IMG/VR virus record: IMGVR_UViG_3300021085_002655
Span: 1 to 37,510 of that record
From: a virus
Length of the DNA: 37,510 nt
Direction: 5' to 3' (one strand)
How positions within the stretch are numbered: position 1 is the stretch's first letter; the number at the start of each line of letters is the position of its first letter. The translations under genes and the position numbers were made by a program. A model generated the notes under the pieces. It saw nothing but the letters and a program-made list of their open reading frames with translations. It did not search any database and was not told where the DNA came from. Below, one piece after another: positions 2,690 through 20,595 of this stretch.

Positions 2690-2736
2690 CGCCCCTCAGT
2701 TGGTCGGTTAGGGGCGCCCCTCAGTTGGTCGGTTAG
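2690..2736 (+). repeat. Tandem 22-base repeat, period 25
   Basis: CGCCCCTCAGTTGGTCGGTT plus AG occurs at 2690-2711 and 2715-2736. The second copy covers the stop codon of the PPK2 gene. The join creates the 12-base palindrome AGGGGCGCCCCT (2710-2721). A diverged third copy (GCGCCCCCTTATTTGGTCG) lies at 5439-5457. Confidence 0.85.
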
Positions 2737-3353
2737 CATTCCAGATTTTCAAGTGTAGAATTAAGGGTTGACAGCAGAGAAAATATCCCCTCTTCTTTGT
2801 TGTTGTAGTCGATCACATGCCAATCCGAATCGATAACATTTTCTTTTAATAATGTCATGCGGTCATAATACGAAAGCGCATTTTCATCATTAGCGGAAAA
2901 TTTCCAATAGGTCAATGGTGATTTTTTGCGTTTTTCAATACGCGCGCGCTGTTCGTTTTCATCAATCGAAAGCCAGAATTTAATTATATGCACGTTTCTG
3001 GATTTTTCCCAATCTTTGTGATCTTGAAGAAAATTAGTGAATTGCTTTTCAGAGCACCAATTATTCAGACGTTGAACCATAGCGCGTGAATACCATGATC
3101 GATCATAGAACACAATTTGGTTTTTTGTGGGCATTCTACGCGACCAGTACGAAAGCCATTTTTTCATTGTTGATTTGCTTGGCTTCTGGCTTAAATGCAC
3201 AGAGTAATGCTTCGGATTAAGGTAGTGTGTCACCTCGCGGATCGTGCTAGATTTTCCGGCAGTGTCGCGCCCCTCAAGTACAACGCAAATTCCTTTATGC
3301 GCTAAACCTTCCAGATTGTGATTAAGTTTCGCTTGCTCTTTTTTTATGCTCAT
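2733..3353 (-). CDS. ppk2: PPK2-family polyphosphate:nucleotide phosphotransferase
   Basis: PPK2 enzymes use inorganic polyphosphate to phosphorylate nucleoside mono- or diphosphates (or the reverse). The family hallmarks are present in order: Walker A in VVLEGRDTAGKSS (residues 24-36), the Walker B-like block FYDRSWYSR (82-90) and the lid region with RARIEKRKKSPLTYWKFS (137-153) followed by DENALSYYDRM. The 206-aa length is a little short of the usual 230-300 aa single-domain enzymes. The ATG at 3353 follows GAGGGG and overlaps the stop of a 37-aa membrane peptide as ATGA, making it the last gene of the operon from 5117-5144. In a phage it could convert host polyphosphate into nucleotide supply during replication; that role is inferred. 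The canonical EGRDAAGKGG loop is slightly altered (T for A, SS for GG). Confidence 0.88.
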   Translation of the reverse strand: MSIKKEQAKLNHNLEGLAHKGICVVLEGRDTAGKSSTIREVTHYLNPKHYSVHLSQKPSKSTMKKWLSYWSRRMPTKNQIVFYDRSWYSRAMVQRLNNWCSEKQFTNFLQDHKDWEKSRNVHIIKFWLSIDENEQRARIEKRKKSPLTYWKFSANDENALSYYDRMTLLKENVIDSDWHVIDYNNKEEGIFSLLSTLNSTLENLEC

Positions 3354-4113: not shown

Positions 4114-4584
4114 TTAGGCCTCCTCAGCCATTCGATTGAGATTATATAGTACAGGATCAATCACACGAAATCCAGCATTTTTTAAAGTTTTTTGCACATC
4201 GGCATTGTCATCCCACAGGATCACACGCCGACGAATTTCCTCAAAGGACACGCCGCGCAGAATTGCGAGATCGTGCATTTTAGATAGCTTGAATATACCC
4301 GCGTCTCTCATGTCATCCGCAGAACGCGAGAGCGTAAAACGTGGGCGCATGTTGCGAACGTCAAGCCATGTAGTGTCGGCCTCACCCATTACCCGCGAGG
4401 TGCAGATACCAACGTCGAGACCTTCCGCTATAGCTTGCACCATAGTATCCGCAAGCGGCAACATTGAATCTTTCGCTACATTGTCGGGCGTGTTCATTCT
4501 ACGCCAGTCGTCTAGCGTTTCACCTTGTCGATGAGCCGAGTCAATGACAGTTTCGTCAAGATCAAATAAAAAGATTGGAAGCAT
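4114..4584 (-). CDS. HAD-superfamily phosphatase, possibly polynucleotide 3'-phosphatase-like
   Basis: The 156-aa protein carries the four HAD motifs: I FLFDLDETV (D8, D10), II ICTSR (about T62/S63), III lysine in IFKLSK (99-102) and IV ILWDDNADV (D125, D126). The spacing and the block with WLDVRNM and DDMRD resemble the phosphatase half of T4 PseT-type polynucleotide kinase and small acid phosphatases, but there is no kinase domain. Likely a cytoplasmic phosphohydrolase acting on nucleotides or DNA/RNA ends. The ATG at 4584 follows AGGA and overlaps the end of the upstream membrane gene by 23 bases. Assignment to HAD is firm; the substrate is inferred. Confidence 0.78.
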   Translation of the reverse strand: MLPIFLFDLDETVIDSAHRQGETLDDWRRMNTPDNVAKDSMLPLADTMVQAIAEGLDVGICTSRVMGEADTTWLDVRNMRPRFTLSRSADDMRDAGIFKLSKMHDLAILRGVSFEEIRRRVILWDDNADVQKTLKNAGFRVIDPVLYNLNRMAEEA

Positions 4585-4768
4585 AACCGATAATTCCTAT
4601 AGTGTTTAATATGAGCAAATTATAACATTTTGTGTCGTATGCTTGCAAGCTCAATAATGCAAGGCCGAGCATCGCCATCACTTGACCGAGGGCCGTAGTG
4701 ATGAGGAAAGGAGCCGCACCCATAAGCGCGGTTCCAATCCAAGAGGAGACCGAAACAAGGCGATCCAT
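4562..4768 (-). CDS. 68-aa small membrane protein
   Basis: A 68-aa hydrophobic protein starting MDRLVSVSSWIGTALMGAAP, with two or three predicted membrane helices (IGTALMGAAPFLITTALG; VMAMLGLALLSLQAY; LLILNTIGIIGYASNLF) separated by a short loop DTKCYN. The ATG overlaps the stop of the helix-turn-helix-like gene as TAATG. It overlaps the HAD gene by 23 bases. No family recognised; it does not have the N-terminal charge pattern of a signal peptide and is probably an inner-membrane protein. A holin-like role is conceivable but it sits in the early-type operon, not near lysis genes. Confidence 0.7.
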   Translation of the reverse strand: MDRLVSVSSWIGTALMGAAPFLITTALGQVMAMLGLALLSLQAYDTKCYNLLILNTIGIIGYASNLFI

Positions 4769-5073
4769 TATCGAATTGCCATTAGAAGCGCGGATAATGC
4801 CCGAGCGTCAGACTTCGAGAGACCCGCGAGAGCTTCGGGGTCGGCGTCAAGCGCTATCACGATAGCGTCAACAATATCGGCCTTTGATACGCGAGGGCCG
4901 GCAGAGGAAACCGTTTTGGGTTTCGGGGTGTAGTCAAGCCCGAGGTGTTTAACCTTTGAGATAACAGATCGAACGCTCAAGCTGTGAGCTTCCGCAAACG
5001 CAGACGCGCTCTCGTAAGTGAATGATTCAACAGATTGCATTTCAGCGATCATGGTGGGAGTATAGTTGGACAT
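4768..5073 (-). CDS. Small helix-turn-helix-like protein, paralogue of the gene at 1903-2211
   Basis: A 101-aa protein starting MSNYTPTMIAEMQSVESFTY. The ATG at 5073 has AAGGA at good spacing and aligns with the paralogue's start; the longer frame to 5172 would place its first codons inside the promoter. The two proteins share the core SFTYE(T/S)AS(E/A)FA, AHSLSVRSVISKVK and LGL-YTPKP blocks, then SSAGPR and KADIV, giving strong identity across the whole length. The first half looks like a DNA-binding helix-turn-helix. It is the first gene of the operon that ends with PPK2, so it may be autoregulatory; a 15-base inverted repeat overlaps the -10 of its promoter. Confidence 0.8.
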   Translation of the reverse strand: MSNYTPTMIAEMQSVESFTYESASAFAEAHSLSVRSVISKVKHLGLDYTPKPKTVSSAGPRVSKADIVDAIVIALDADPEALAGLSKSDARALSALLMAIR

Positions 5074-5116
5074 AGTGTCTTTCCTTTTTAGTGTTATGCT
5101 TGATTGCATGGGTGGT

Positions 5117-5144
5117 ATTATACCACGTTTTTTAAATTTGTCAA
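5117..5144 (-). promoter_or_regulatory. Consensus promoter of the PPK2 operon with an overlapping inverted repeat
   Basis: Minus strand: TTGACA (5139-5144), 16-base spacer, TATAAT (5117-5122), with TGG just before the -10 (extended -10). The -10 sits inside the palindrome GTGGTAT-A-ATACCAC, a possible operator. The upstream 26 bases are nearly identical to those at 5388-5413. Confidence 0.88.
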
Positions 5145-5176
5145 ATACCGATTTGGAATAAGCTAATAGCATTTGG

Positions 5177-5338
5177 TTATATCTCGTGAGATAGTGCCAA
5201 TGCCGCTACAGCAGTCGGTAAAAATGTTACGGTTGCGATTACAACACCTAACAGGTCACCAATAGCGGCCGACCAGATGCCAACGCCACAGGCAACGATT
5301 AAGAGAGTAAGCAGAGATAAGAGTGTAAAAATTTTCAT
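5177..5338 (-). CDS. 53-aa membrane protein or small lipoprotein
   Basis: A 53-aa hydrophobic protein starting MKIFTLLSLLTLLIVACGVG. The ATG at 5338 is preferred (AAGGA upstream at 9 bases) over the longer frame to 5377, which would overlap the promoter. Two hydrophobic segments are visible (about 3-23 and 30-50). The sequence LIVAC at 13-17 fits a lipobox, so it could be processed as a lipoprotein, but the following residues are also hydrophobic and a two-helix inner-membrane protein is equally possible. It is transcribed from 5368-5395 and probably reads into the downstream operon, as I see no terminator between them. Function unknown. Confidence 0.62.
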   Translation of the reverse strand: MKIFTLLSLLTLLIVACGVGIWSAAIGDLLGVVIATVTFLPTAVAALALSHEI

Positions 5339-5367
5339 GTCGGTATATCCTTGTTGGTATGTGTAGG

Positions 5368-5395
5368 ATTTTACCACAGTTTCGAGTTTTGTCTA
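5368..5395 (-). promoter_or_regulatory. Promoter for the 53-aa membrane protein
   Basis: Minus strand: TAGACA (5390-5395), 16-base spacer, TAAAAT (5368-5373) with TGG before it (extended -10). Five of six matches in each hexamer, and the upstream element is shared with the promoter at 5117-5144. Confidence 0.75.
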
Positions 5396-5494
5396 ATACC
5401 GATTTGGCATAAGGAAGCCCGTTCTTATAACCAAATGTGCGCCCCCTTATTTGGTCGTCAGATGCTAACAAAAAAATAAAGGGGCGAAAATATA

Positions 5495-5522
5495 GCGAAT
5501 GCGAATGCGAATGATTCGCATT
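5495..5522. promoter_or_regulatory. Fur-box-like array 2 (hexamer repeats plus perfect palindrome)
   Basis: AATGCGAATGATTCGCATT (5504-5522) is a perfect 9-1-9 palindrome. Extending left, the hexamer GCGAAT occurs three times in tandem (5495-5512), then G, then the inverse ATTCGC (5514-5519), which is the head-to-head hexamer array described for Fur sites (GATAAT hexamers) with GC in place of AT at one step. Confidence 0.58.
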
Positions 5523-5532
5523 AGGGGGCGGT

Positions 5533-5551
5533 AATGAGACTCATTCTCATT
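5533..5551. promoter_or_regulatory. Fur-box-like palindrome 3
   Basis: AATGAGACTCATTCTCATT is a 9-1-9 palindrome with one arm mismatch, centred 29 bases from array 2. Its right half ATTCTCATT is identical to a common Fur half-site and to the inverse of the left half of box 1 at 2665-2683. It lies about 114 bases upstream of the -10 for the 92-aa gene. Confidence 0.55.
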
Positions 5552-5661
5552 TGGCTCGGCGAGACCCCTCTTTTTGCGCAACTTGGGGTATTTTTGCAAG
5601 CAAAAAGGTGCTAAAATTAACCGAAAATTAACACAATCTTTATCAAATCTTAACAAAACTA

Positions 5662-5670
5662 TGATATAAT
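5662..5670 (+). promoter_or_regulatory. Extended -10 promoter of the 92-aa exported protein
   Basis: TGATATAAT combines a TGn extended element with a perfect TATAAT (5665-5670). No convincing -35 lies 16-18 bases upstream; the region is AT-rich. The start codon follows at 5691 after AGAGGAGA. Confidence 0.65.
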
Positions 5671-5690
5671 ATTCACAGAGGAGAAATACT

Positions 5691-5969
5691 ATGAAATTTT
5701 TTATTTTTATGATCGCATTCACATCAACCGCTCACGCTGCACCCTATATTGAGTACAAAAACAAGTACGACTTGCGAGTTCAACAAAGCAAGGATAATTA
5801 TGTTCGAATCGGCTACAAGACCCCCAAGCTTTACGGAGAGGTAGGAAAAGATTCGGCCGAAGTAGGATATAAAATAAAAGCCTCAAACTTTACTTTTAAG
5901 GGAAAAGTTGAAAGTACTGAGGACTTTAAGAAGACTACCCTTGAAACTGAAGTCAGGGTGACCTTCTAA
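5691..5969 (+). CDS. Small exported, probably outer-membrane-associated protein
   Basis: A 92-aa protein with a clear signal peptide (MKFFIFMIAFTSTAHA, cleavage after AHA at 16). The mature part of about 76 residues is a string of amphipathic beta strands (YIEYKNKYDL, YVRIGYKTPKLYGEVG, AEVGYKIKASNFTFKGKV, TTLETEVRVTF) and ends in phenylalanine after alternating hydrophobic residues, the outer-membrane sorting pattern. It is too short for a usual 8-strand barrel, so it may be an oligomeric or partial barrel, or a periplasmic beta protein. ATG 5691 has GAGGAGA at good spacing. It is the first of three exported proteins in a row, downstream of two Fur-like boxes. Family not recognised. Confidence 0.72.
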   Translation: MKFFIFMIAFTSTAHAAPYIEYKNKYDLRVQQSKDNYVRIGYKTPKLYGEVGKDSAEVGYKIKASNFTFKGKVESTEDFKKTTLETEVRVTF

Positions 5970-5978
5970 ATAAAATTC

Positions 5979-6007
5979 TTGACATTTCAATTTTTTTAAA
6001 CTATAAT
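5979..6007 (+). promoter_or_regulatory. Perfect sigma70 promoter of the TonB-dependent receptor gene
   Basis: TTGACA (5979-5984), 17-base spacer, TATAAT (6002-6007). Preceded by AAATTC as in the other rightward promoters of this phage. The predicted leader is about 68 bases. No Fur-like palindrome overlaps it. Confidence 0.92.
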
Positions 6008-6017
6008 AAGCATTCCT

Positions 6018-6060
6018 GAGAAAAAATGAATTTTCCCAAAACCCACCGATCGAAAGATCG
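6018..6060 (+). promoter_or_regulatory. Shared leader element, upstream ORF and GNRA hairpin of the receptor mRNA
   Basis: GAGAAAAAATGAATTTTCCC plus AA (6018-6039) is identical to 8577-8598 in front of the second outer-membrane gene. It encodes an ATG-initiated upstream frame beginning MNFPK (6026-6118, 30 codons) that overlaps the receptor start out of frame. The perfect hairpin CGATC-GAAA-GATCG (6047-6060) follows, 10 bases before the AAGGAG at 6071-6076. Confidence 0.65.
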
Positions 6061-6081
6061 AAGAAAACTAAAGGAGTTATT

Positions 6082-8487
6082 ATGTTTAAAAAGACATGTC
6101 AAACTGTCTTTCTTATGAGTGTCGCTTCTAGTGCATTCGCAATGGAAGAAGTCGTTGTAAAAGGCGACCTAGGCAGTTTACCCGGCGAACGTGTTGAAAG
6201 CGTCTTCGGATTTGAAAAATCAATTATAGATACACCCCGTTCCGCATCAACCATCAGTGAAGAGATGATGGATCGTTTTAATATGCAAGATATCGATGAA
6301 CTCGTAGCTCTTGCTCCAGGTACTTTCACTCAATCATTTTTCGGTGTTGCAGGTTCCTTAGATGTTCGTGGTACTGCTGGTGAGACTTACTTTCGCGGCA
6401 TTCGTCGTCTTGATAACCCCGGTAACTACCCTACTCCGATTGGAGCCTCTGATCGAGTAGATATCGTTCGAGGCCCTGCGTCTCCCATCATGGGGCCTTC
6501 AAAGATTGGTGGTTATCTCAACTTTAATCCAAAATCTGCTCGTATTGAAGAAACTGGTTCGTACATCGAGGAGCGTGTCGGAGAACTGTCTTACTCAGGA
6601 GGCAGCTGGGGCCGAAATGTTTTGACTGCAGAAGTTGGAGGTCCCGCAGCAATCGGTGGAAAACCTCTCGGCTACTACCTCTATGGAGAAATAGAGAATT
6701 CTGATAGCTTTTACACAAATGCACCCGGAGTGAGTCAATCTCTAGTACAAGCATCTTTTGACATGGACTTGAGTGACAATGTTCGAATTCAGTTTGGTGG
6801 TATGGTACACGACTACAAAGGTAGCCAAAACGCTGGCTGGAATCGTTTAACTCAAGATCTGATCGATACCGGTACTTACATTACAGGAACTCCAACCCCT
6901 CTTGATACTTCTGGCGATGGAGCTATTTCGCATGATGAGTACTATGCAGGAAACATTAATCCTTTTGCTTTGTATGCCTTCTTCGGACAGAAAGACATGG
7001 ATTTGGCAACTCTATCAGATGCCTCTTTCGGTTTTGATTATGAGAACTCAAATATGATTCTAGAGAACGTAGGAACTGCAATTCTTCCAATGTCGTCAAC
7101 GCTGATCGCTTCTGATGACTTACTGGAGAACAAGGTGAATACTCTCTACTTTGATATTGATGTTGGACTTGGCTCTTGGGATTTGACGAATAAGTTGTTT
7201 TATGAGTCATACGAGAACTTGAATGAGAATGCTTATGGATTCTCACAGTTTCACGACGCTTCTGTGATTGAGGATCAATTGATTCTTTCACGCGTCTTTG
7301 ATGGTGACTCTCTTACTACATCGATACAAATATCTCCTTCGATTCGACGAACTGAGTTTACACATGGAGATGACTACTACAATGAGTATTTTAGTCGACG
7401 TGATCTGACAGGGCCTTCAACTGCTCTTGACCGTCGAGTACTGGCAACTCGAATTGACTCAGAGTACAGCGAATACTATGTAGGTGAGTACACAAATCTT
7501 GGATTTGGTGTAATGGCTGACTTCGCACATGAGAGCGGTCTATCTCTTCTTTTAGGTGCACGTTATGATGTTATCGACATGGAGTCTACAACACCTGCGG
7601 GTAAGACACAGTCTGATTCAGCTTTTACTTCTTCGGAAGGTGGTGTTGATGTTGCTGTAAATAGTGCAACGGCTGAGCCTTCAGGAGTTTCCTGGTCAGG
7701 AAGCTTGAGTTACTCTATTGGAGGTTTCGTACCTTACGTTACAATGTCAGAGCAAAACACTGTGATTGCGGGTCAGGGATCTGAGCTACAGGTTGGCAAT
7801 GTATTTACGGGTAACGCCTTCGGATCTTCAGAGTTAATGGAGTATGGAGTGAAAGGTAGTCTACTAGACGATCGTTTATACTTTGCGGTATCTTCTTATG
7901 AAATGGAACGTACTGACTTTAATGCTCAGTCTATTACAGTAAACCAAGCGGTAAAGACAGAAGGTACAGAAGTTGAAGTGCGTTGGGCCGTAAACGAGAA
8001 GTTTCTTATGACATTCGGCTATAGCAATGTTGAAGCACTGATGTTGGCGACGATCGCTGCAGGCAGTGAATTCTCATTCCTAGGACAAGCAGATTTACCT
8101 TTAATCGATCCTACTTTGTTGTGGGGCGGTCAAGTTGGTGGTTTGATTCCTGTCGGACCGAGCGAAGGTGTTCGAGCTGGTATGCCTGAAACTATCATGT
8201 CTGTTACTGGTACTTACGACTTCGGTAATGGTATTGCTGTTAGTGGTAGCGTAGTTGATGTAGAGGCTGTAGCGTCTGGTCAGTCTTTCGCAGTTACCCT
8301 TCCCGCCTATACCCTAGTAAACTTAAGCATGAGCTACGAAGCTGATAACTGGTCTCTGATTGTTGCTGCAAAGAATGTTACTGATGAGCGTTACTTTCGA
8401 GCAAACTTCCCAGACCTCTTTGGAACCACAGTTGTTCTACCTGAGCTGCCAAGGCATTATCAGGCAAAAGTATCCTATCGTTTCTAA
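6082..8487 (+). CDS. TonB-dependent outer-membrane receptor (siderophore-receptor-like)
   Basis: A complete 801-aa TonB-dependent receptor. A signal peptide ends at SSAFA (16-20), followed directly by a TonB-box-like EEVVVKG (22-28). The plug domain spans about 45-155 with typical blocks: IIDTPRSASTISEEMMDRF, DELVALAPG, LDVRGTAGETYFRGI and DRVDIVRGPASPIMGPSKIGG. The remainder is a 22-strand barrel pattern, ending in AAKNVTDERYFRANFP and a C-terminal YRF, the outer-membrane insertion signature. Such receptors take up ferric siderophores, haem, vitamin B12 or carbohydrates with energy from TonB-ExbBD; the plug style resembles siderophore receptors but no substrate can be assigned. Residues 275-286 (DTSGDGAISHDE) match an EF-hand calcium loop, probably in an extracellular loop. 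It has its own consensus promoter, leader and terminator. Full length and intact, so probably functional. Very unusual in a phage. Confidence 0.93.
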   Translation: MFKKTCQTVFLMSVASSAFAMEEVVVKGDLGSLPGERVESVFGFEKSIIDTPRSASTISEEMMDRFNMQDIDELVALAPGTFTQSFFGVAGSLDVRGTAGETYFRGIRRLDNPGNYPTPIGASDRVDIVRGPASPIMGPSKIGGYLNFNPKSARIEETGSYIEERVGELSYSGGSWGRNVLTAEVGGPAAIGGKPLGYYLYGEIENSDSFYTNAPGVSQSLVQASFDMDLSDNVRIQFGGMVHDYKGSQNAGWNRLTQDLIDTGTYITGTPTPLDTSGDGAISHDEYYAGNINPFALYAFFGQKDMDLATLSDASFGFDYENSNMILENVGTAILPMSSTLIASDDLLENKVNTLYFDIDVGLGSWDLTNKLFYESYENLNENAYGFSQFHDASVIEDQLILSRVFDGDSLTTSIQISPSIRRTEFTHGDDYYNEYFSRRDLTGPSTALDRRVLATRIDSEYSEYYVGEYTNLGFGVMADFAHESGLSLLLGARYDVIDMESTTPAGKTQSDSAFTSSEGGVDVAVNSATAEPSGVSWSGSLSYSIGGFVPYVTMSEQNTVIAGQGSELQVGNVFTGNAFGSSELMEYGVKGSLLDDRLYFAVSSYEMERTDFNAQSITVNQAVKTEGTEVEVRWAVNEKFLMTFGYSNVEALMLATIAAGSEFSFLGQADLPLIDPTLLWGGQVGGLIPVGPSEGVRAGMPETIMSVTGTYDFGNGIAVSGSVVDVEAVASGQSFAVTLPAYTLVNLSMSYEADNWSLIVAAKNVTDERYFRANFPDLFGTTVVLPELPRHYQAKVSYRF

Positions 8488-8491
8488 GAAG

Positions 8492-8513
8492 AAAGGGGCT
8501 CCGGCCCCTTTTT
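8492..8513 (+). terminator. Intrinsic terminator after the receptor gene
   Basis: AAAGGGGC-TCCG-GCCCCTTT followed by more T: an 8-base stem with a TCCG tetraloop ending in a T run, directly after the stop codon at 8487. Confidence 0.92.
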
Positions 8514-8538
8514 ACTGCCCCCTAACCAAAAAAATTTC

Positions 8539-8567
8539 TTGACATTTTTGCTGAACTGTGCCAGAAT
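8539..8567 (+). promoter_or_regulatory. Promoter of the second outer-membrane gene
   Basis: TTGACA (8539-8544), 17-base spacer, CAGAAT (8562-8567) with TGC before it, which supplies an extended -10 to offset the weaker hexamer. The upstream AAATTTCTTGAC matches the other rightward promoters. Confidence 0.8.
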
Positions 8568-8576
8568 ATCATTCTG

Positions 8577-8623
8577 GAGAAAAAATGAATTTTCCCAAGA
8601 ATAAAAATGGAGACATTTTATGA
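8577..8623 (+). promoter_or_regulatory. Shared leader element with a 12-codon upstream ORF
   Basis: The first 22 bases (8577-8598) are identical to 6018-6039. GGAG is 6 bases before ATG 8585, which opens the frame MNFPKNKNGDIL; its TGA (8621-8623) overlaps the start of the next gene as ATGA. The layout is that of a translated leader peptide coupled to the downstream gene. Confidence 0.68.
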
Positions 8624-9192
8624 AATACTTACTCGCATTTCTTGCGTTTTTTACTTTACCAGCTTTTGCTGAAATCAACGGCTCTGTAGGAGCAACATCC
8701 CAATATGTTTTTAGGGGTCTCTCTCAGGGTGAAGACCCTGCGTTGCAGGTAGGTATTACTGCTTCCTCAGAAAATTTTTATGTTTCTTTTTGGGCAAGCC
8801 AGGTGGACGTCGCTCGTGATGTACATACAGAAGCAAACTATGCTTTTGGCATAAAAGCGAAGGGTTTTGATGTTGGCGTTCTTCAGTATGATTATTATGG
8901 CGATGATCTCGAACTTGGTGATGAGAGTCGTGAAGTTTATGTAGGTTATGCGGCCGGTCCTTTCTCAGCGTATGCTTTTCAGGATATGGATACGAAAGAC
9001 AACTACTATAATATAAATGCAAGCCATTCATTCGATCTTGTAGATGTTTCAGTTTTTGCTGGACATGCAGAAGACTATGACCATGGAGGCGTGAAAGTTT
9101 CTCGCTCCTTTAATAAGTTCAATCTCGGTTATACCTTTGATTATAGACGTGATGCTTCGGAGCATTCGGTAGGACTTTTCTACAACTTCTAA
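8620..9192 (+). CDS. TorF/TIGR02001-like putative outer-membrane porin-like protein
   Basis: A 190-aa exported protein. The signal peptide MKYLLAFLAFFTLPAFA is cleaved after AFA (17). The mature start EINGSVGATSQYVFRGLSQG, in particular the SQYVFRGLSQ block, is the signature I associate with the TIGR02001 / TorF family of gammaproteobacterial outer-membrane proteins. About eight to ten amphipathic strands follow and the chain ends VGLFYNF, with the terminal phenylalanine needed for barrel insertion. It is shorter than the 220-250 aa usual for that family. ATG 8620 follows GGAG at 7 bases and is coupled to the leader peptide. It lies between two intrinsic terminators with its own promoter, so it is an independent unit. 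The function of this family is poorly known; transport or surface modification is possible. Confidence 0.78.
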   Translation: MKYLLAFLAFFTLPAFAEINGSVGATSQYVFRGLSQGEDPALQVGITASSENFYVSFWASQVDVARDVHTEANYAFGIKAKGFDVGVLQYDYYGDDLELGDESREVYVGYAAGPFSAYAFQDMDTKDNYYNINASHSFDLVDVSVFAGHAEDYDHGGVKVSRSFNKFNLGYTFDYRRDASEHSVGLFYNF

Positions 9193-9195
9193 ACA

Positions 9196-9217
9196 AAAGG
9201 GCCTTCGGGCCCTTTTT
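9196..9217 (+). terminator. Intrinsic terminator with UUCG tetraloop
   Basis: AAAGGGCC-TTCG-GGCCCTTT followed by T residues, directly after the stop at 9192. It isolates the envelope cassette from the late module. Confidence 0.92.
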
Positions 9218-9242
9218 CCTACCCCCACCTCAAAAATAAATC

Positions 9243-9271
9243 TTGACTTTTCGCTCGTATTAGAATACAAT
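9243..9271 (+). promoter_or_regulatory. Promoter at the start of the late module, predicted to give a leaderless mRNA
   Basis: TTGACT (9243-9248), 17-base spacer, TACAAT (9266-9271). Only 6 bases separate the -10 from ATG 9278, so the expected transcription start coincides with the A of the start codon. Confidence 0.85.
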
Positions 9272-9277
9272 TGACTC

Positions 9278-9706
9278 ATGAAACTCGTAAAAATGGCACC
9301 AGAAAATCTTGAAGTAGCCAACGCATATTTAAGCACTGGCAATGCAGTCGTTGCTGCAAATCATTTAGGATGTACTCCAGACCAGGTCTACGAGATACTT
9401 GAGAAATCAGAAGTAAAAGATTATATTAACTCGGTCTACCTCGACCAAGGTTATCGTAACCGTTTCCGCCTTGCAGAATTACTAGACGAAGTCATTGAAA
9501 ATAAAATACAAGAAGCCCGTGACTCCGATCAATACTCTAGCAAAGATTTAGTTGATATAATTGCTCTTGCTCATAAAGTGTCAGAAGATCATCGAAAAAC
9601 TTCGAATACTACGAACATTAAACAGCAGAACGTTCAAATCAATTCTCCTTTTGGCGAAGGAAACTATGGTAAGTTAATGGAGAAGTTGCTTGGAGCACCA
9701 GAATAA
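9278..9706 (+). CDS. Probable small terminase subunit / DNA-binding protein
   Basis: A 142-aa helical protein immediately upstream of the packaging genes. Residues about 10-45 (ENLEVANAYLSTGNAVVAAN; HLGCTPDQVYEILEKSEVKD) look like a helix-turn-helix of the kind found in small terminases (AANHLG as the recognition-helix entry). A long middle helix follows (RLAELLDEVIENKIQEARDS) and then a Q/N-rich tail (NIKQQNVQINSPFGEGNYGK). This fits the small terminase layout: N-terminal DNA-binding domain, central oligomerisation, flexible C-terminus. The start ATG 9278 has no ribosome-binding site and lies at the expected mRNA 5' end; a second in-frame ATG is at 9293, also without one. Its end overlaps the next gene. 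Confidence 0.65.
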   Translation: MKLVKMAPENLEVANAYLSTGNAVVAANHLGCTPDQVYEILEKSEVKDYINSVYLDQGYRNRFRLAELLDEVIENKIQEARDSDQYSSKDLVDIIALAHKVSEDHRKTSNTTNIKQQNVQINSPFGEGNYGKLMEKLLGAPE

Positions 9707-9926: not shown

Positions 9927-10138
9927 TTTTTAAAAAAGGAAGTATGTGGAAAATTGCGGGAAGTGCTGCCAAGTACTCTACTGAAGAAGAGGCAAAAGCT
10001 GCTGCAGGAATAAAACAGACTGTAATAAAAGAAGCTCCTTTTGAAAAGAGAGCTCCTTGTAATGAATGTGCATGCGATCCATGCGAGTGCGGGGCAGAAT
10101 GGAAGTCAGTCGAAAAGACATCTACCAAGAAAGTATAA
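9923..10138 (+). CDS. 71-aa protein with a cysteine cluster
   Basis: The ATG at 9923 overlaps the previous stop as ATGA and has AAAGGA upstream, so it is chosen over the longer frame from 9863. The N-terminal part MIFKKGSMWKIAGSAAKYST is basic, the middle an alanine-rich helix (EEEAKAAAGIK). The C-terminal half holds a C-x2-C-x-C-x2-C-x-C cluster (C46, C49, C51, C54, C56, in CNECACDPCECG), likely a metal-binding knuckle. It overlaps the start of the large terminase. Family not recognised; the metal site suggests a nucleic-acid-binding or structural accessory protein. Confidence 0.7.
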   Translation: MIFKKGSMWKIAGSAAKYSTEEEAKAAAGIKQTVIKEAPFEKRAPCNECACDPCECGAEWKSVEKTSTKKV

Positions 10139-11379
10139 TAAAAGGGAGCTTTTTAAAAGTCCCTATTGAAAGTTATTTAGAACTACTAGGTATAGAGGCT
10201 ATACCTTCACAGAGGGCTTTAATCAATGCTATTAATAATGATAAGTATCGCTTTATTGTTGGTGCTCTTAGTAGGCGGCAAGGAAAAACATATATTGGTA
10301 ACATTATTGCCCAATGTGTCGCCCTCGTACCGGGATGCCATGTACTTATTGTGTCTCCTAATTACAACCTTAGTAACATTTCTTTTGATCTCCAAAGAAA
10401 TCTTATAAAACATTTTGACCTGGAAGTAGCGAGAGATAACGCAAAAGATAGAGTAATTGAACTCACTAATGGGTCTACAATTAGACTCGGTTCCGTGAAT
10501 CAAATTGATTCCGTTGTAGGAAGAAGCTATGACTTTGTTCTCTTCGATGAAGCGGCATTGGCAGATGGAGAAACTGCCTTCAATGTTGCCATCAGACCTA
10601 CTCTTGACAAGCCGGGGTCTAAAGCTTTATTTATTAGTACTCCTCGCGGAAGGAATAATTGGTTTAGTCGTTTTTATAATCGTGGCTTTACTGATGAATT
10701 TGATGAGTGGGTAAGTATAAAAGCAACTTGGCAAGATAATCCTCGAGCATCGGAATCTGATATTGCAGAAGCTCGTCGTTCTATGAGTCAAGCAGAGTTC
10801 TCCCAAGAATATGAAGCAGACTTTAATATCTTCGAAGGGCAAGTATGGAACTTTGATTACGATAACTGTATAGCTGACTTATCAGAAAAAGATTTTACAG
10901 GTTGTGATATTATCTCAGGACTTGACGTAGGTTTTAAAGATCCAACCGCTTTTTGCTGTTTAGCTTATGACGGGGATAAGTACTATTTAATGGAAGAGTA
11001 TTATGCCGCAGAGAGAACAACAGAAGAACATGCAGGTTTCTTAGCTGAAATTATTGATAGAAGAGAAGTAGATTACTGCTTTATTGATGCTGCGGCGGCT
11101 CAGACAAGATTTGACTTTGCGCAGCAGTACGATATTTCTACTATAAACGCTAAAAAATCTGTGGTAGATGGAATAGGGCATGTAGCTAGTCTTGTTGACA
11201 ATGGTCGCTTAATAGTAGATCAAAGCTGTACAGAGGTTCTTCGTAGTCTTGACCAGTACAGGTGGGATCCAAACCCTAACTTAATACGTGAGAAGCCGGT
11301 ACATGACTCTTCTTCTCATATGGCGGATGCATTGAGATACGCACTTTATAGTTTTGAAGAGAACGCGCCAACATTTTAA
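10099..11379 (+). CDS. terL: Terminase large subunit (packaging ATPase and nuclease)
   Basis: The motor that cuts concatemeric DNA and pumps it into proheads. From ATG 10099 it is 426 aa: an ATPase domain with a Walker A variant SRRQGKT (58-64), Walker B FVLFDE (146-151) and coupling motif FISTPRG (178-184), then an RNase H-like nuclease domain with aspartates in SGLDVGFKDPT (D276), YCFIDAAAA (D330) and near the C-terminus in HMADALRYALYSF. The upstream ATG at 10066 would add 11 residues (MCMRSMRVRGR) that are read from the Cys-cluster gene in another frame; 10099 has GGGG at a reasonable distance and is preferred. Complete and intact. Followed by a new promoter rather than a terminator. Confidence 0.93.
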   Translation: MEVSRKDIYQESIIKGSFLKVPIESYLELLGIEAIPSQRALINAINNDKYRFIVGALSRRQGKTYIGNIIAQCVALVPGCHVLIVSPNYNLSNISFDLQRNLIKHFDLEVARDNAKDRVIELTNGSTIRLGSVNQIDSVVGRSYDFVLFDEAALADGETAFNVAIRPTLDKPGSKALFISTPRGRNNWFSRFYNRGFTDEFDEWVSIKATWQDNPRASESDIAEARRSMSQAEFSQEYEADFNIFEGQVWNFDYDNCIADLSEKDFTGCDIISGLDVGFKDPTAFCCLAYDGDKYYLMEEYYAAERTTEEHAGFLAEIIDRREVDYCFIDAAAAQTRFDFAQQYDISTINAKKSVVDGIGHVASLVDNGRLIVDQSCTEVLRSLDQYRWDPNPNLIREKPVHDSSSHMADALRYALYSFEENAPTF

Positions 11380-13003: not shown

Positions 13004-13330
13004 ATGAAAAAAACAGAAGTACTAAAGACCTTAGTTGACTTCTTCCACGAACAAGGAAGAGTACTAAGAAAAACGGAATATTATAGACTAGGCGCAGACG
13101 TATGGCCTATCCATCCTAGACTTCTAACAAGATACTTTAGGGGCAGAGGTTATAACTCTATCCTTAAAACTGCACAACATATGTATCCGGCAGACTGGGC
13201 TTCAATCGGCACTGCGCCCGTTGAAGCTCCGAAGCCTGTTAAAAAGCCCGTTCTTGAACCGGCTTCAGAAGACGATCTTTCTCCTCTGGAGAAATTAAAG
13301 TCTTTAAAAGAAGGAGAATCAAGTGAATAA
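13004..13330 (+). CDS. 108-aa hypothetical protein between portal and protease-capsid genes
   Basis: A protein starting MKKTEVLKTLVDFFHEQGRV directly after the portal stop. The N-terminal 65 residues are basic and helical (RKTEYYRLGADVWPIHPRLL, RYFRGRGYNSILKTAQHMYP), resembling a small DNA-binding domain. The C-terminal part is proline- and acid-rich (APVEAPKPVKKPVLEPASED), likely flexible. It ends with GEGSSE-like codons overlapping the protease start by 8 bases. I do not recognise the family; a head-assembly or DNA-binding accessory role is plausible from position. Confidence 0.7.
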   Translation: MKKTEVLKTLVDFFHEQGRVLRKTEYYRLGADVWPIHPRLLTRYFRGRGYNSILKTAQHMYPADWASIGTAPVEAPKPVKKPVLEPASEDDLSPLEKLKSLKEGESSE

Positions 13331-15377
13331 GATTTTTCACATTGGCTCCACATTTAAAGCGTTTGAAGAAGGGGATGATCTTCATATCGCTGGTATGGCT
13401 AGTACTAATAGTACTGACCGTGTTGGAGATGTAATTGAGACTGAGGCCTGGACAAAGGGCGGACTTCAAAATTACTTAAACAATCCCGTAATTCTTTTTA
13501 ATCATGACTACAATCAGCCGATTGGCCGAGCAATTACGCTTGGTACGAACGACAATGGTCTGCAGTTAAAAGCAAAAATTGCTAAATCTGCTGGTCACGT
13601 AGGTGAATTAATTAAAGAAGGTGTCCTTGGAGCTTTTTCAGTCGGGTTTCGAGTCAAGGATGCGGAATATATGACCGAAACCGATGGATATAAGATTAAG
13701 GACGCAGAATTACTGGAAGTTTCAGTAGTAACGGTTCCTGCTAACCAAGCTGCAACCTTTTCTCTTGCAAAATCTTTTAACTCAGAATCTGAGTACGAAG
13801 AATTCAAGAAATCTTTCAAAACCGAAGATTCCGTGGAAGAAAAACACATACTTAATATTCAGGAAACTGAAGACAAAGTAACTGTTGAGTTTGAAAAACA
13901 TTCTGAAACCGAGTCAATGCCTAAAGACTTATCACAAGTCGAAGTACAGGAGAAAACTATGAGTGATATCGATATCGATGCGATTGTGGCTGCTGCTGTC
14001 GAAAAGACCGCAACTGCAATGGCAATGAAAGACGCTGAGCGCAAAGCAGAAGAGCAAACGCGATTGGAAGCAGAGCAAAAAGCTGCTGAAGACGCACAAG
14101 TTCAAAAAGCTGCTGAAGAAGCTCGCATTGTAACCGCTGTTTCCAGCGGTACAGAAAAATTAATGGCTGACGTTGAAGCTAAAATGTCTGAGAAAGAAGC
14201 CGACCATATGGAAGTTGTCAAGCAATTCGAAAAAGAATTGTCTGAGAAATCTGAGGAAATTCAGAAGATGCGTGACAGTAAGCGAGTATTCGCTGACCGT
14301 GGCGAAAAATCTAGTTTCACAGAAGACGACATGGTAAACGCGCATATTCTAGGTGTAGTTACTAACAAAGGATTAGAAGGTACCAAGTTTGGTCGTTCTA
14401 TTCTAGAGAAAGCTACTAATAATACTGCGGGTGTTCGTTTGCCTGCTAGTGCTAGTGATGACTTTGAAACTACTGTTTCAACTGCTATCGAACGTGACAT
14501 TGAGCTCGAGCTTGTTCTCGACCCTCTGTTCCGTAAGATTCAGATGAACGCTGCTTCAATGGTTATTCCAACTATGCCTGATTCAGGTTATGCAGAATGG
14601 CTTAGCGCTAACGCTGCTGGAACAGGCGCAGGCGCTGCTCCTAAAGGTAACCTGGGTTCACGTGATGAAGCTTCACCCGGCGCCAATGCTGGGGTTACTT
14701 TAGGATCTAAAGTATTGACCGTTGAGAAGTTGGTTTCTAAGTCTTTTATGGCTAACGAAACTGAAGAAGATGCAATTATGCCTGTTCTTCCTTTGATTCG
14801 CGAAGCTATGGTTCGTGCACATGCACGTGCTATTGAGCATTCAATCCTTCAAGCTGGCTCTTCTGAAGTAGTAAACGCTGGCGGCCAGAATGGTTTGATC
14901 AAGCTTGCTACTGATGACACCAAAGTACTTGACTCCGGCGCTTCTGCCGGTGCCTATGTAGCTACTACTGCTGCTTTGTTGAACATGCGTCAAGCAATGG
15001 GTAAGTATGGTCGTCGTCCGAGTGACGTAGTATATATTGTATCTTTGGATGCATACTACGATATGCTTGATGATCCAGAATTCCAAGACGTCAACCTCGT
15101 TGGAAGTGATCGCGCTACTAAGATCTCAGGCGAAATTGGTCAGGCTTACGGCTCACCAATCATCGTTTGTGACGAGTTCACTGGCGGAAAGACTGCTAAC
15201 AAGGTTTGGGGTGTTGCTGTTAATGCTCGTAACTTCTTGGTACCAGTACTTCGCGGTGTTACTGTTGAGTCTGACTATGAAGTCGCTAACCAACAGCGAG
15301 TTCTTGTTGCTACGCAACGTCGTGGTTTCGACCAGATGTTTGCTGCTGCTGGACAAGTTGTTGCGCACAAGTGGTAA
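13323..15377 (+). CDS. Prohead protease fused to major capsid protein (HK97 fold)
   Basis: A 684-aa fusion. Residues 1 to about 160 are an HK97-type (U35) prohead protease with ILFNHDYNQPIGRA (H61), GAFSVGFR (S106) and ELLEVSVVTVPANQAA (E132). Residues about 213-325 are an alanine/glutamate-rich coiled coil that should act as the scaffold (delta) domain. Residues about 330-684 are the capsid shell domain, with the late strands VWGVAVNARNFLVPVLRGV and VLVATQRRGFDQMF. The protein starts GTG with AAGGAG six bases upstream. A second strong ribosome-binding site inside the gene would yield capsid without protease (see separate entry). It is followed by a terminator-like hairpin. Protease-capsid fusions are known in some siphoviruses but are a minority arrangement. 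Confidence 0.9.
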   Translation: MNKIFHIGSTFKAFEEGDDLHIAGMASTNSTDRVGDVIETEAWTKGGLQNYLNNPVILFNHDYNQPIGRAITLGTNDNGLQLKAKIAKSAGHVGELIKEGVLGAFSVGFRVKDAEYMTETDGYKIKDAELLEVSVVTVPANQAATFSLAKSFNSESEYEEFKKSFKTEDSVEEKHILNIQETEDKVTVEFEKHSETESMPKDLSQVEVQEKTMSDIDIDAIVAAAVEKTATAMAMKDAERKAEEQTRLEAEQKAAEDAQVQKAAEEARIVTAVSSGTEKLMADVEAKMSEKEADHMEVVKQFEKELSEKSEEIQKMRDSKRVFADRGEKSSFTEDDMVNAHILGVVTNKGLEGTKFGRSILEKATNNTAGVRLPASASDDFETTVSTAIERDIELELVLDPLFRKIQMNAASMVIPTMPDSGYAEWLSANAAGTGAGAAPKGNLGSRDEASPGANAGVTLGSKVLTVEKLVSKSFMANETEEDAIMPVLPLIREAMVRAHARAIEHSILQAGSSEVVNAGGQNGLIKLATDDTKVLDSGASAGAYVATTAALLNMRQAMGKYGRRPSDVVYIVSLDAYYDMLDDPEFQDVNLVGSDRATKISGEIGQAYGSPIIVCDEFTGGKTANKVWGVAVNARNFLVPVLRGVTVESDYEVANQQRVLVATQRRGFDQMFAAAGQVVAHKW
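13959..15377 (+). CDS. Nested in-frame start: capsid plus scaffold without the protease
   Basis: Within the fusion gene, AGGAG (13948-13952) lies 6 bases before ATG 13959, an ideal initiation site in the same frame (Met213, MSDIDIDAIVAAAVEKTATA). Initiation here gives a 472-aa protein with coiled-coil scaffold and shell domain but no protease. This would supply the several hundred capsid copies per protease that HK97-like assembly needs. Predicted from sequence only. Confidence 0.65.
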   Translation: MSDIDIDAIVAAAVEKTATAMAMKDAERKAEEQTRLEAEQKAAEDAQVQKAAEEARIVTAVSSGTEKLMADVEAKMSEKEADHMEVVKQFEKELSEKSEEIQKMRDSKRVFADRGEKSSFTEDDMVNAHILGVVTNKGLEGTKFGRSILEKATNNTAGVRLPASASDDFETTVSTAIERDIELELVLDPLFRKIQMNAASMVIPTMPDSGYAEWLSANAAGTGAGAAPKGNLGSRDEASPGANAGVTLGSKVLTVEKLVSKSFMANETEEDAIMPVLPLIREAMVRAHARAIEHSILQAGSSEVVNAGGQNGLIKLATDDTKVLDSGASAGAYVATTAALLNMRQAMGKYGRRPSDVVYIVSLDAYYDMLDDPEFQDVNLVGSDRATKISGEIGQAYGSPIIVCDEFTGGKTANKVWGVAVNARNFLVPVLRGVTVESDYEVANQQRVLVATQRRGFDQMFAAAGQVVAHKW

Positions 15378-17881: not shown

Positions 17882-19270
17882 ATGGCTTTACAATTTACAA
17901 GAAACGCTACCGTATACGTAGAACTTCTAGACGCTAACGGCTACCATAAAAATGGCTGGCAGTTATCTGTTTTAGACGGTTTTTCGTTCACCCAATCAAT
18001 CAACTCTTCGGAAATCACAATCAACGAAGCAGGCTCCACCTCTCGTAGAGCTCGACTGCTTTTTAATGATAGTCTGGCTCCTGTAGAGTGGTCTATGAGT
18101 ACTTATGCGCGTCCTTTCACAGACTCTTCTAAAACAAGAGCACCTGAAGACGTTCTTTGGGCTATGTCGCTTGGAGCTAATGATTACAACAACACTACTA
18201 AAGTATTTTCTGGCACTAGTTCAAGTCCTGCAGTAAATGCTGTAACTAATGGTACGAATACTTTTAATTTTAACAACTCAAACGTTTCTTCTTTCTCCGA
18301 TAATTGGAATATCTATTTCGGTTTCGAAGACGGCACTAACATTCAATATTACAAACTACAGAGTTCTGTAGTTAACTCTGTTTCGATGGACTTTGATATT
18401 GATGGTATTGCAACTATCTCTTGGAGTGGTTTTGCAAAACAATTGGGAGATGAAAGCACTGTTAAACCCGGTTTTGTATTGCCGGTTGGGCAAGCTGTTA
18501 CGGGAGCCTCAGGAAATGGTTCAGTAGCTACCTTGACCGTTGGAGCTACTACAGGTTTCCGAGTAGGACAAAGAATCTATGTAGAAGGCATGAATCCTGC
18601 AGGCTATAACACAGCTACTTCAGGCAGTTTAAAAACTCCTGCAGGGGCCCTAATTACTGCTCTAACTTCCACAACCGTTTCTTACGCTAGTGCTGAAAAC
18701 GGAAGTTTCTCTTCTGGGGGCACATTAGGTAGTTTAAAAGCTGCTCAAGTAACTGCTGGAGAAGTGGTTATTAATACAGGATTGAATACAACAACTAATT
18801 TTATTAGGAATAGAATATCTACAGTTACCCTGCAAAATACAGCAGGCTCTTTAGACTACAATCTTGTGCTTACAGGAGGCAATTTAACCCTAGAAAATAA
18901 TATTAATTATCTCACTCCAGAAGAATTAGGCGTAGTAAACGCTCCTTTAGCTAATATTACTGGCGCACGAAGCATTAGTGGTAGTATGACTTGTTACTTA
19001 GACAATGATACCGCAGGAGAGAAGTCAGGCAAATTATTTGCAGACTTAGTCGCGGATACAACTACTATCAGAAATGTTTTTGATATGACACTTCAAATGG
19101 GAGGAACCTCAGCGGGCCCCAGAGTTTATCTGGATTTGCCGACTGCACATTTGGAAGTACCTACTATTAATGTCGAAGACTTACTTACCTTAGAGATTAA
19201 TTTCCACGGGCAAGTTAGCGGCGGTAACGTTGACCTAACAAACGAAGCAACTATTATATATAATAGCTAA
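17882..19270 (+). CDS. Tail tube protein 1 with an inserted beta domain
   Basis: A 462-aa protein starting MALQFTRNATVYVELLDANG. It shares with its neighbour (19282-20595) the blocks LSVLDGFSFTQSINSSEITI, RARLLFNDSLAPVEWSMSTY, the FDIDGIATI(S/A)WSGFAK core, FIRNRISTV, the NYLTPEELGVVNAPLANITG block and the C-terminal VEDLLTLE(I/V)NFHGQV. This is the beta-sandwich tube family where the same fold stacks as hexameric rings. Between the core and FIRNRISTV it carries an extra domain of about 100 residues (about 200-305) with GNGSVATLTVGATTGFRVGQ and VEGMNPAGYN, a motif style common in phage surface domains. Strong ribosome-binding site AGGAG. Highly expressed structural gene. Confidence 0.82.
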   Translation: MALQFTRNATVYVELLDANGYHKNGWQLSVLDGFSFTQSINSSEITINEAGSTSRRARLLFNDSLAPVEWSMSTYARPFTDSSKTRAPEDVLWAMSLGANDYNNTTKVFSGTSSSPAVNAVTNGTNTFNFNNSNVSSFSDNWNIYFGFEDGTNIQYYKLQSSVVNSVSMDFDIDGIATISWSGFAKQLGDESTVKPGFVLPVGQAVTGASGNGSVATLTVGATTGFRVGQRIYVEGMNPAGYNTATSGSLKTPAGALITALTSTTVSYASAENGSFSSGGTLGSLKAAQVTAGEVVINTGLNTTTNFIRNRISTVTLQNTAGSLDYNLVLTGGNLTLENNINYLTPEELGVVNAPLANITGARSISGSMTCYLDNDTAGEKSGKLFADLVADTTTIRNVFDMTLQMGGTSAGPRVYLDLPTAHLEVPTINVEDLLTLEINFHGQVSGGNVDLTNEATIIYNS

Positions 19271-19281
19271 GGAGAAATAAA

Positions 19282-20595
19282 ATGGCTTTACAATTTACAA
19301 GAAATGCTACGGTTTACGTAGTAGGTGGAGGAGCTGTTTGGCAGTTGTCAGTTTTGGACGGTTTTTCCTTTACTCAATCAATCAATTCTTCAGAAATTAC
19401 AATCAATGAAGCGGGTTCTACTTCTCGTAGAGCTCGACTGCTTTTTAACGATAGTTTAGCTCCTGTAGAATGGTCTATGAGTACATACGCCCGTCCTTTC
19501 AAAAGTTCTGGTAGTGTTCGCGCTCCGGAAGAAGCTCTCTGGGCTATGATGCTCGGTGCGACACATCATTCTTCGGGAGTTTTTAGGTCTTCTGCTTTTA
19601 CAGAAGTAACAAGTATTAATGTACATACAGCAGGATTACAACCTAAAGGTCCTATATATGAAATTACCACCGCAGGAAGCTCTGTTAATTGGACAGCTAT
19701 AGGAGCTTCGGCGGCTACTGCAGGAGCTAAATTTATTTACAATGGTGTAGCTATTACAGGTTCCGGAGGTGTAGTTACTGAAACTGATGAGATTAACCTA
19801 ATTACTACGGATGCTAGTAATGGTACTCCTTCGGACGCTTTTGAGGATGATAGAAACGTATTTAACCTATCTAAGTCAAACGTTTCTTCTTTTTCAGATG
19901 GATGGGATATTTATGTAGCTTTCGAAGACGGCAGTAATAAGCAATATTATAAATTAGCCGATTCAGTAGTTAACTCTGCTTCTATTGATTTTGATATTGA
20001 CGGTATTGCAACCATTGCTTGGAGCGGCTTTGCCAAAACTTTGACAGATGCTGGCACAAGCGCACCTAGTGCTATTACTTCTCCTACCCCTATTACGGGC
20101 GGACTGACCGATACGGATAACTTTATTCGTAACAGAATCTCCACGGTAAGATTAATAAATACAAGTGACTCCGATGCTTATACAGTAGTTCTTACTGGAG
20201 GCAGCTTCACTATCGAGAATAATGTCAATTATCTTACCCCAGAAGAACTAGGTGTAGTAAACGCTCCTTTAGCCAATATTACAGGGGCAAGAAGTGTGAG
20301 TGGCAGTATGACTTGTTACTTAGATAATGATATTTCAAATAGTAAATCTGGAGAATTATTTAAGGATTTGGTAGAGGATACAACAACCATTCGTAATACT
20401 CACTTACTCGAAGTAAATATAGGGGGAAGCTCAATAGACACTCCTAGGCTTCAGCTTACTATGCCTTCAGCGCACCTTGAAATACCTACAATTAATGTTG
20501 AGGATCTACTTACTTTGGAAGTTAATTTCCACGGACAAGTACAGGGCGGTGACGTAGATAAGACCAATGAAAGTCTTATAGCTTATAAGGCATAG
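19282..20595 (+). CDS. Tail tube protein 2, paralogue with a different insertion
   Basis: A 437-aa paralogue of the preceding gene, with the same first residues MALQFTRNATVYV and long shared blocks (see 17882-19270). It lacks the C-terminal-half insertion of its neighbour but has its own insertion of about 100 residues after the first third (about 95-195), containing INVHTAGLQPKGPIYEITTA and GVAITGSGGVVTETDEINLI. Only 11 bases separate the two genes, and AAGGAG precedes the ATG. Two tube proteins with separate decorations could alternate in the tube, form different tail segments, or one could be a minor/capping tube protein. It is the last gene before a promoter and terminator pair. Confidence 0.82.
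   Translation: MALQFTRNATVYVVGGGAVWQLSVLDGFSFTQSINSSEITINEAGSTSRRARLLFNDSLAPVEWSMSTYARPFKSSGSVRAPEEALWAMMLGATHHSSGVFRSSAFTEVTSINVHTAGLQPKGPIYEITTAGSSVNWTAIGASAATAGAKFIYNGVAITGSGGVVTETDEINLITTDASNGTPSDAFEDDRNVFNLSKSNVSSFSDGWDIYVAFEDGSNKQYYKLADSVVNSASIDFDIDGIATIAWSGFAKTLTDAGTSAPSAITSPTPITGGLTDTDNFIRNRISTVRLINTSDSDAYTVVLTGGSFTIENNVNYLTPEELGVVNAPLANITGARSVSGSMTCYLDNDISNSKSGELFKDLVEDTTTIRNTHLLEVNIGGSSIDTPRLQLTMPSAHLEIPTINVEDLLTLEVNFHGQVQGGDVDKTNESLIAYKA

Follow-up and report, generated by a model that had tools for sequence, protein, structure and literature searches.

A TonB-dependent receptor related to those of bacterial purine loci in a T5-like phage

Why should a phage carry a TonB-dependent receptor (TBDR) of its own? 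The question is raised by the window, the 37,510-nucleotide stretch of viral DNA analysed here. The initial annotation had placed in it a receptor gene with its own promoter, leader and terminator between phage early and late genes, and had offered three roles for the product: improved iron or nutrient uptake by the infected cell, a surface altered against superinfection, or a receptor supplied to nearby cells through lysis vesicles. The gene does lie between early and late genes, as listed below. What went unrecognised is that the phage is T5-like, and that in this group the characterised members have TBDRs as their receptors.

2733 to 3353, minus strand: PPK2 polyphosphate kinase (nucleotide phosphorylation), early arm
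4114 to 4584, minus strand: T5 dmp homologue, deoxynucleoside-5'-monophosphatase, early arm, called by homology to T5
5691 to 5969, plus strand: small secreted barrel-like protein, 92 aa; its homologue in the relative L003 weakly matches Pfam Phage_OMP
5979 to 6007, plus strand: sigma-70 promoter of the TBDR gene, TTGACA-17 nt-TATAAT, matching the consensus at 12 of 12 positions and conserved in relatives
6011 to 6037, plus strand: leader motif CATTCCTGAGAAAAAATGAATTTTCCC, common to the Gcw_chp leader and kept upstream of the TBDR in phages of the window's lineage (lineage A)
6047 to 6060, plus strand: leader hairpin CGATC-GAAA-GATCG, found by folding and not conserved in relatives
6082 to 8487, plus strand: TBDR, 801 aa, called from Pfam, phmmer, AF2, Foldseek and the alignment of relatives
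8491 to 8514, plus strand: intrinsic terminator 3' of the TBDR, a hairpin after the stop (-17.9 kcal/mol, z -2.9)
8539 to 8567, plus strand: promoter of the Gcw_chp gene, TTGACA-17-CAGAAT, 10 of 12 positions
8570 to 8596, plus strand: second copy of the leader motif, before the Gcw_chp gene
8620 to 9192, plus strand: Gcw_chp (PF09694) outer-membrane barrel-like protein, 190 aa, with a TBDR-type leader and its own terminator at about 9195 to 9218
9278 to 9706, plus strand: terminase small subunit (terS), T5.156 homologue, phrog_3802, the right border of the T5 oad/llp position
10066 to 11379, plus strand: terminase large subunit (terL), 47% identical to that of T5

An intact receptor gene with its own transcription signals

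Positions 6082 to 8487 encode an intact TBDR, and the open reading frame has exactly these limits. The protein begins with a signal peptide (residues 1-20, MFKKTCQTVFLMSVASSAFA, read from the sequence as SAFA-type with no lipobox cysteine), continues through the TonB-box-like EEVVVKG (residues 22-28) and a plug (about 49-160), and ends in a 22-strand barrel (about 166-801) closing on YRF, likewise read from the sequence, whose final F is conserved across phage relatives. An EEVVVKG-type motif is kept in phage and host copies alike, and it is a candidate TonB box through which the receptor would couple to TonB. Pfam Plug (PF07715) matches residues 49-144 with E 1.4e-11, the domain is strongly conserved across the family, and phmmer matches the protein to the pyochelin receptor FptA (E 2.7e-8). 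An AF2 model built from 40 family sequences is of medium confidence (pLDDT 65.6, pTM 0.72), an earlier one from 10 sequences having been poor (pLDDT 35.6); its strands score mostly 75-90 and its plug region mostly below 50, so that the plug call rests on sequence, while the 22 barrel strands were counted by reading the model. A missing plug or barrel was looked for, and both are present. The top Foldseek matches of the model in the PDB are all TBDRs (FoxA, FpvA, PiuA and FhuA, E about 1e-24), at 9-14% identity, which speaks to the general fold only. The long loop L3 (residues 275-287, about 6904-6942) contains a conserved EF-hand-like motif, DTSGDGAISHDEY, that is possibly calcium-binding.

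The promoter, leader and terminator reported by the initial annotation also hold up. Promoter-like sites are in no excess across the region (11 found against 10.6 expected in shuffles), and the TBDR promoter is singled out by its perfect consensus and correct placement. The leader folds with z -2.5, its first half is conserved in relatives, and the motif pattern CATTC.TGAGAAAA.ATGAATTTTCCC occurs before both the TBDR and the next gene and is kept in relatives. The terminator was missed by a consensus scan and detected by folding; an Rfam scan of 5000-9700 gave no match.

A T5-like phage and its receptor locus

The window is an IMG/VR fragment of a marine T5-like, Demerecviridae-related phage. 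Its late genes run in T5 order, with homologues of terS (T5.156), terL, T5.153, portal, MCP, T5.148/147/146 and pb6 (twice), followed by T5.144/143/142, pb2, T5.139 and pb3, and by terminase its nearest isolates are for the most part large Vibrio phages (112-114 kb). The window and its relatives are metagenomic fragments whose hosts are judged from gene origin. Several side observations may be recorded here. A single 684-aa frame at 13323-15377 (plus strand) joins a head maturation protease part (phrog_80) to a pb8-like capsid part (phrog_267), which are two genes in T5. The pb6-like major tail protein genes stand in tandem at 17882-19270 and 19282-20595 (plus strand), where T5 has one, and a pb3-related frame at 28441-37509 (plus strand) exceeds 3,000 aa before running off the contig end, against about 950 aa for T5 pb3. 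In the early arm, 1903-2367 and 4768-5172 (minus strand) encode paralogous small proteins with a common AHSLSVRSVISKVK..GL.YTPKP helix-turn-helix-like stretch.

In T5, the place directly upstream of terS is taken by oad, which encodes the receptor-binding protein pb5, and llp, whose product inactivates the receptor FhuA; Llp is described as jamming FhuA (PMC9586334). Across T5-like coliphages the receptor-binding gene lies invariably immediately upstream of the terminase, and the receptors are BtuB, FhuA or FepA, all of them TBDRs (PMC8594841). The TBDR of the window adjoins terS and terL on this same upstream side, in a locus made up of the 92-aa secreted barrel-like protein, the TBDR and the Gcw_chp protein. 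The T5 hallmark of oad directly upstream of terS with llp beside it is absent from the window, and since these three genes fill that place, we call the phage T5-like and do not assign it to Markadamsvirinae. In both arrangements the same genomic place is concerned with an outer-membrane TBDR, but oad encodes a tail protein and llp a small periplasmic lipoprotein, neither related in sequence to the window locus, which holds a whole TBDR and two barrel-like proteins.

Some sister phages share the early arm and the 92-aa gene but lack the TBDR, the 92-aa gene being found both with it and without it; the TBDR is therefore an accessory gene in a variable locus, and dispensable. Some relatives have tail-fibre-like modules of varying content, with an assembly chaperone, between the outer-membrane protein genes and terS (L003 11923-15050, L006 3169-6834, L112 2751-5028). 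The large proteins encoded there have no family match and are possibly the receptor-binding proteins; the module and chaperone are absent from the window. A 643-aa frame of L006 was considered as a pb5 homologue and rejected, since it matches no PHROG whereas T5 pb5 matches its own family. Gcw_chp-type genes also adjoin the TBDR in a second lineage (L011 4899-5483) and occur in the oad/llp locus of a sister phage (L116 377-985), and a search of eight host genomes for the origin of the window's Gcw_chp gene gave no match, a result that is uninformative.

Two captures from a bacterial purine locus

The closest bacterial relatives of the receptor are up to 85-88% identical over the mature protein and come from Gammaproteobacteria MAGs, some of them labelled Pseudomonadales or Porticoccaceae. 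A metagenomic fragment holding a gene 88% identical to a host gene invites the suspicion of assembly chimerism or bacterial contamination, but the gene is found in its present position in more than 10 other viral contigs, and the junctions are repeated, at 86-100% identity, in many independent ones. The phage copies form phage-specific clades and have a phage-like codon composition (GC3 0.31-0.44, against 0.47-0.60 in hosts). A chimeric junction was looked for and none was found. Because left arm, TBDR and terminase are contiguous in independent contigs, we consider this explanation refuted, with a negligible chance of being correct.

A second phage lineage (lineage B; L011-L013, L015-L019, L021, L022, L063-L065) encodes a receptor 60-63% identical to that of the window. 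It is T5-like too, since homologues of D5, D6, pri, pol, D10, T5.125, D11, D12, D13, D14 and D15 follow in order in L013 and its contig. Its TBDR is found downstream of nrdA and nrdB on the same strand, at the D15/tail-fibre junction, and in L013 and L011 nrdB and the TBDR are separated by a short frame whose end falls at or near the receptor's start codon. One lineage B contig has been binned into an alphaproteobacterial MAG (L047, PAAM01000024.1, Rhodobiaceae). In INPHARED, a search for a phage homologue returned only two matches, both labelled Acinetobacter phage MD-2021a and both rejected; the record inspected (L110, CAKLQH020000024.1) is a stretch with bacterial chromosomal genes.

Phage TBDRs are nested with full support in a clade of receptors from bacterial purine loci, lineage A beside L027, L028, L032 and L057 and lineage B beside L045, L046, L059 and L060. 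A single phage clade, as expected from one common phage origin, is rejected (AU test, p = 1e-11). The same orthologue was therefore captured twice independently, yet single host genomes contain several TBDR-like matches each. The source was probably marine Gammaproteobacteria, and for the window SAR92/Porticoccaceae-like ones. With their phage-like GC3 and dN/dS of 0.03-0.08, the phage copies are old captures kept under strong purifying selection, and the gene has the profile of an auxiliary metabolic gene, host-derived and intact under selection in phage genomes.

The bacterial loci suggest what the receptor transports. In L027, the order is a purine PRT-like gene, NCS2-type permeases, the allantoinase PuuE, an adenosine-deaminase-like (ADA-like) gene, the TBDR, NUP, ADA, allantoicase and ureidoglycolate lyase, the PRT-like gene and first permease having been assigned by reading their sequences. 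The SAR92/Porticoccaceae-like receptors of this type are chromosomal and uncharacterised; at 85-88% identity they have the same plug, TonB-box motif and loops as the phage protein, and there the gene stands between the ADA-like gene and NUP/ADA. ADA-like or NUP genes lie near the TBDR in 25 of 27 bacterial homologues at an identity of at least 58%, the exceptions being L042, which is cut at a contig edge on that side, and L044, and purine genes lie beside none of eight more distant homologues (52-58%). The association has a Fisher p of 1.9e-6, a value that overstates its significance since the synteny rows are related. Inspection shows signal or lipoprotein signal sequences at the N-termini of both the ADA-like and NUP proteins, which is consistent with periplasmic processing of nucleosides brought in by the receptor. 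From this neighbourhood the substrate would be purine nucleosides. We found no relevant paper describing either a TBDR for purines or a phage-encoded nucleoside transporter. Tsx of E. coli is a nucleoside-specific outer-membrane channel and also a phage receptor (PMC11658791); it too passes nucleosides across the outer membrane, but it is a passive, porin-type bacterial protein without a TonB box.

Two other substrates have to be weighed against nucleosides. Receptors of the purine clade could move something related but larger (nucleotides, NAD-type cofactors or oligonucleotides) or a different nitrogen compound, for instance an intermediate of the allantoin pathway. Porins are wide enough for nucleosides, which already pass them, and allantoinase, allantoicase and ureidoglycolate lyase are also in the locus. 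Against this, it is the ADA-like and NUP genes, more than the allantoin genes, that stay constant next to divergent orthologues, and we consider such a substrate quite improbable. Uptake of iron or siderophores by the infected cell, the usual role of a TBDR, would suit the fold and the best solved-structure matches, which are siderophore receptors, but those matches are generic, the orthologues sit in purine loci, and no siderophore genes were detected among their annotated neighbours; an iron function is very unlikely. Of the three roles first proposed, improved nutrient uptake is thus the best supported, iron as its substrate being unsupported.

Purine import or control of receptors

We lean, by a modest preference, toward the receptor being a purine-nucleoside importer that serves viral nucleotide supply. 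Host RNA polymerase would transcribe the gene from its strong consensus promoter, probably soon after infection, and the product would be exported and inserted in the outer membrane. If the candidate TonB box functions, the receptor would draw on host TonB-ExbBD to bring purine nucleosides, or compounds derived from them, across the outer membrane. In the periplasm they would be handed on to the deaminase and nucleoside phosphorylase that the host secretes, and to its inner-membrane permeases. Purines and nitrogen would then be supplied for a replicating genome that, from T5-like relatives, is expected to exceed 100 kb. Other phage genes nearby act on nucleotides, namely the Dmp homologue (Dmp in the T5 annotation converts deoxynucleotides to deoxynucleosides), PPK2 and, in a relative, ThyX, and the TBDR of lineage B stands behind nrdA-nrdB. 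The two independent captures suggest that phages use the receptor to supply the infected cell with nucleotide precursors. Against purine import, the downstream uptake genes are absent from the phage, with no purine genes beside the TBDR in the window and nrdA-nrdB there instead in lineage B. The permeability of porins to nucleosides weighs in the same direction, as does the presence of sister phages that have the same arms and do without the TBDR. In lineage A, moreover, the gene occupies the T5 receptor/exclusion locus with two outer-membrane-type genes and no metabolic ones.

This last point speaks for the main rival, receptor management, in which the phage TBDR would be a superinfection-exclusion or receptor-exchange factor, displacing the entry receptor, or prevailing over it in the competition for insertion or TonB, or acting as a decoy for competing phages on debris or vesicles. 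T5-like phages enter through TBDRs, the window is T5-like, its TBDR lies exactly at the oad/llp place, and double capture by T5-like phages would be expected if this receptor were also their entry receptor. The surface of the protein argues otherwise. In lineage A, 9 substitutions are fixed relative to sister hosts, 4 of them in loops (p 0.45), and in lineage B 28 are, with 15 in loops (p 0.06); these tests are small, and the loop borders come from the medium-confidence AF2 model. Changes particular to the phages are thus not significantly enriched in the surface loops of either lineage. Between phage and host copies in lineage A, the loops have diverged no more than the strands, and plug divergence is lowest. 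Binding by the same receptor-binding protein would therefore probably not be lost, and the strictly kept TonB-box motif and plug would be needless in a decoy. In lineage B the gene stands with nrdAB, far from the receptor locus. Nor does the protein resemble the small outer-membrane lipoproteins of the Llp/Cor type, being an 801-aa barrel with no lipobox cysteine. The receptor thus looks like a host receptor kept in working order, and this favours transport, although the lineage B loop value leaves room for receptor management, which we regard as doubtful but worth serious consideration. The proposal that the gene alters the cell surface is accordingly weakened by the retained host loops, while its place in the receptor-binding and superinfection-exclusion locus still speaks for it. 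It is also conceivable, though unlikely, that T5-like phages twice captured their own entry receptor and put one copy into their receptor-binding and superinfection-exclusion locus, and that purine feeding and control of receptors on the surface and on post-lysis membranes are combined in one viral gene.

Phage-encoded TBDRs are already known, from annotation only (PMC9723777, PMC10504331). A TBDR annotated as SusC in the marine megaphage Mar_Mega_1 has been proposed to raise carbohydrate uptake, and the accessible portion of that report holds no capture or neighbourhood evidence for it (PMC9723777). The best viral structure match of our model (Foldseek, BFVD), and one clear full-length TBDR among viral proteins, is A0A8D9FQQ5, a SusC of an uncultured marine phage. 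The megaphage SusC likewise has a full-length TBDR fold in a marine phage but differs from the window protein in its identity (about 9%), its carbohydrate SusC-type class and its phage, which is not T5-like. In the pelagiphage Polarivirus skadi, a TBDR annotation has been discussed as pointing to the adsorption receptor (PMC10504331); it lies among structural genes, unlike the TBDR of the window, and no homologue of the window protein from this phage surfaced in the phage-collection search. A TBDR in the receptor locus of a T5-like phage, the capture of one orthologue on two occasions and the prediction of a purine substrate appear to be new.

The prediction extends to the bacterial hosts, since it implies an undescribed class of TBDR substrate in marine bacteria. 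Known phage metabolic genes act mostly inside the cell; a virus-encoded TonB-powered importer, if that is what this gene encodes, would let a phage alter what its host takes up from seawater. The double capture, once behind ribonucleotide reductase genes and once in the T5 receptor locus, gives a specific and testable substrate, purine nucleosides, and with this system it can be tested directly whether phage transporters are there for the sake of replication or for managing receptors.
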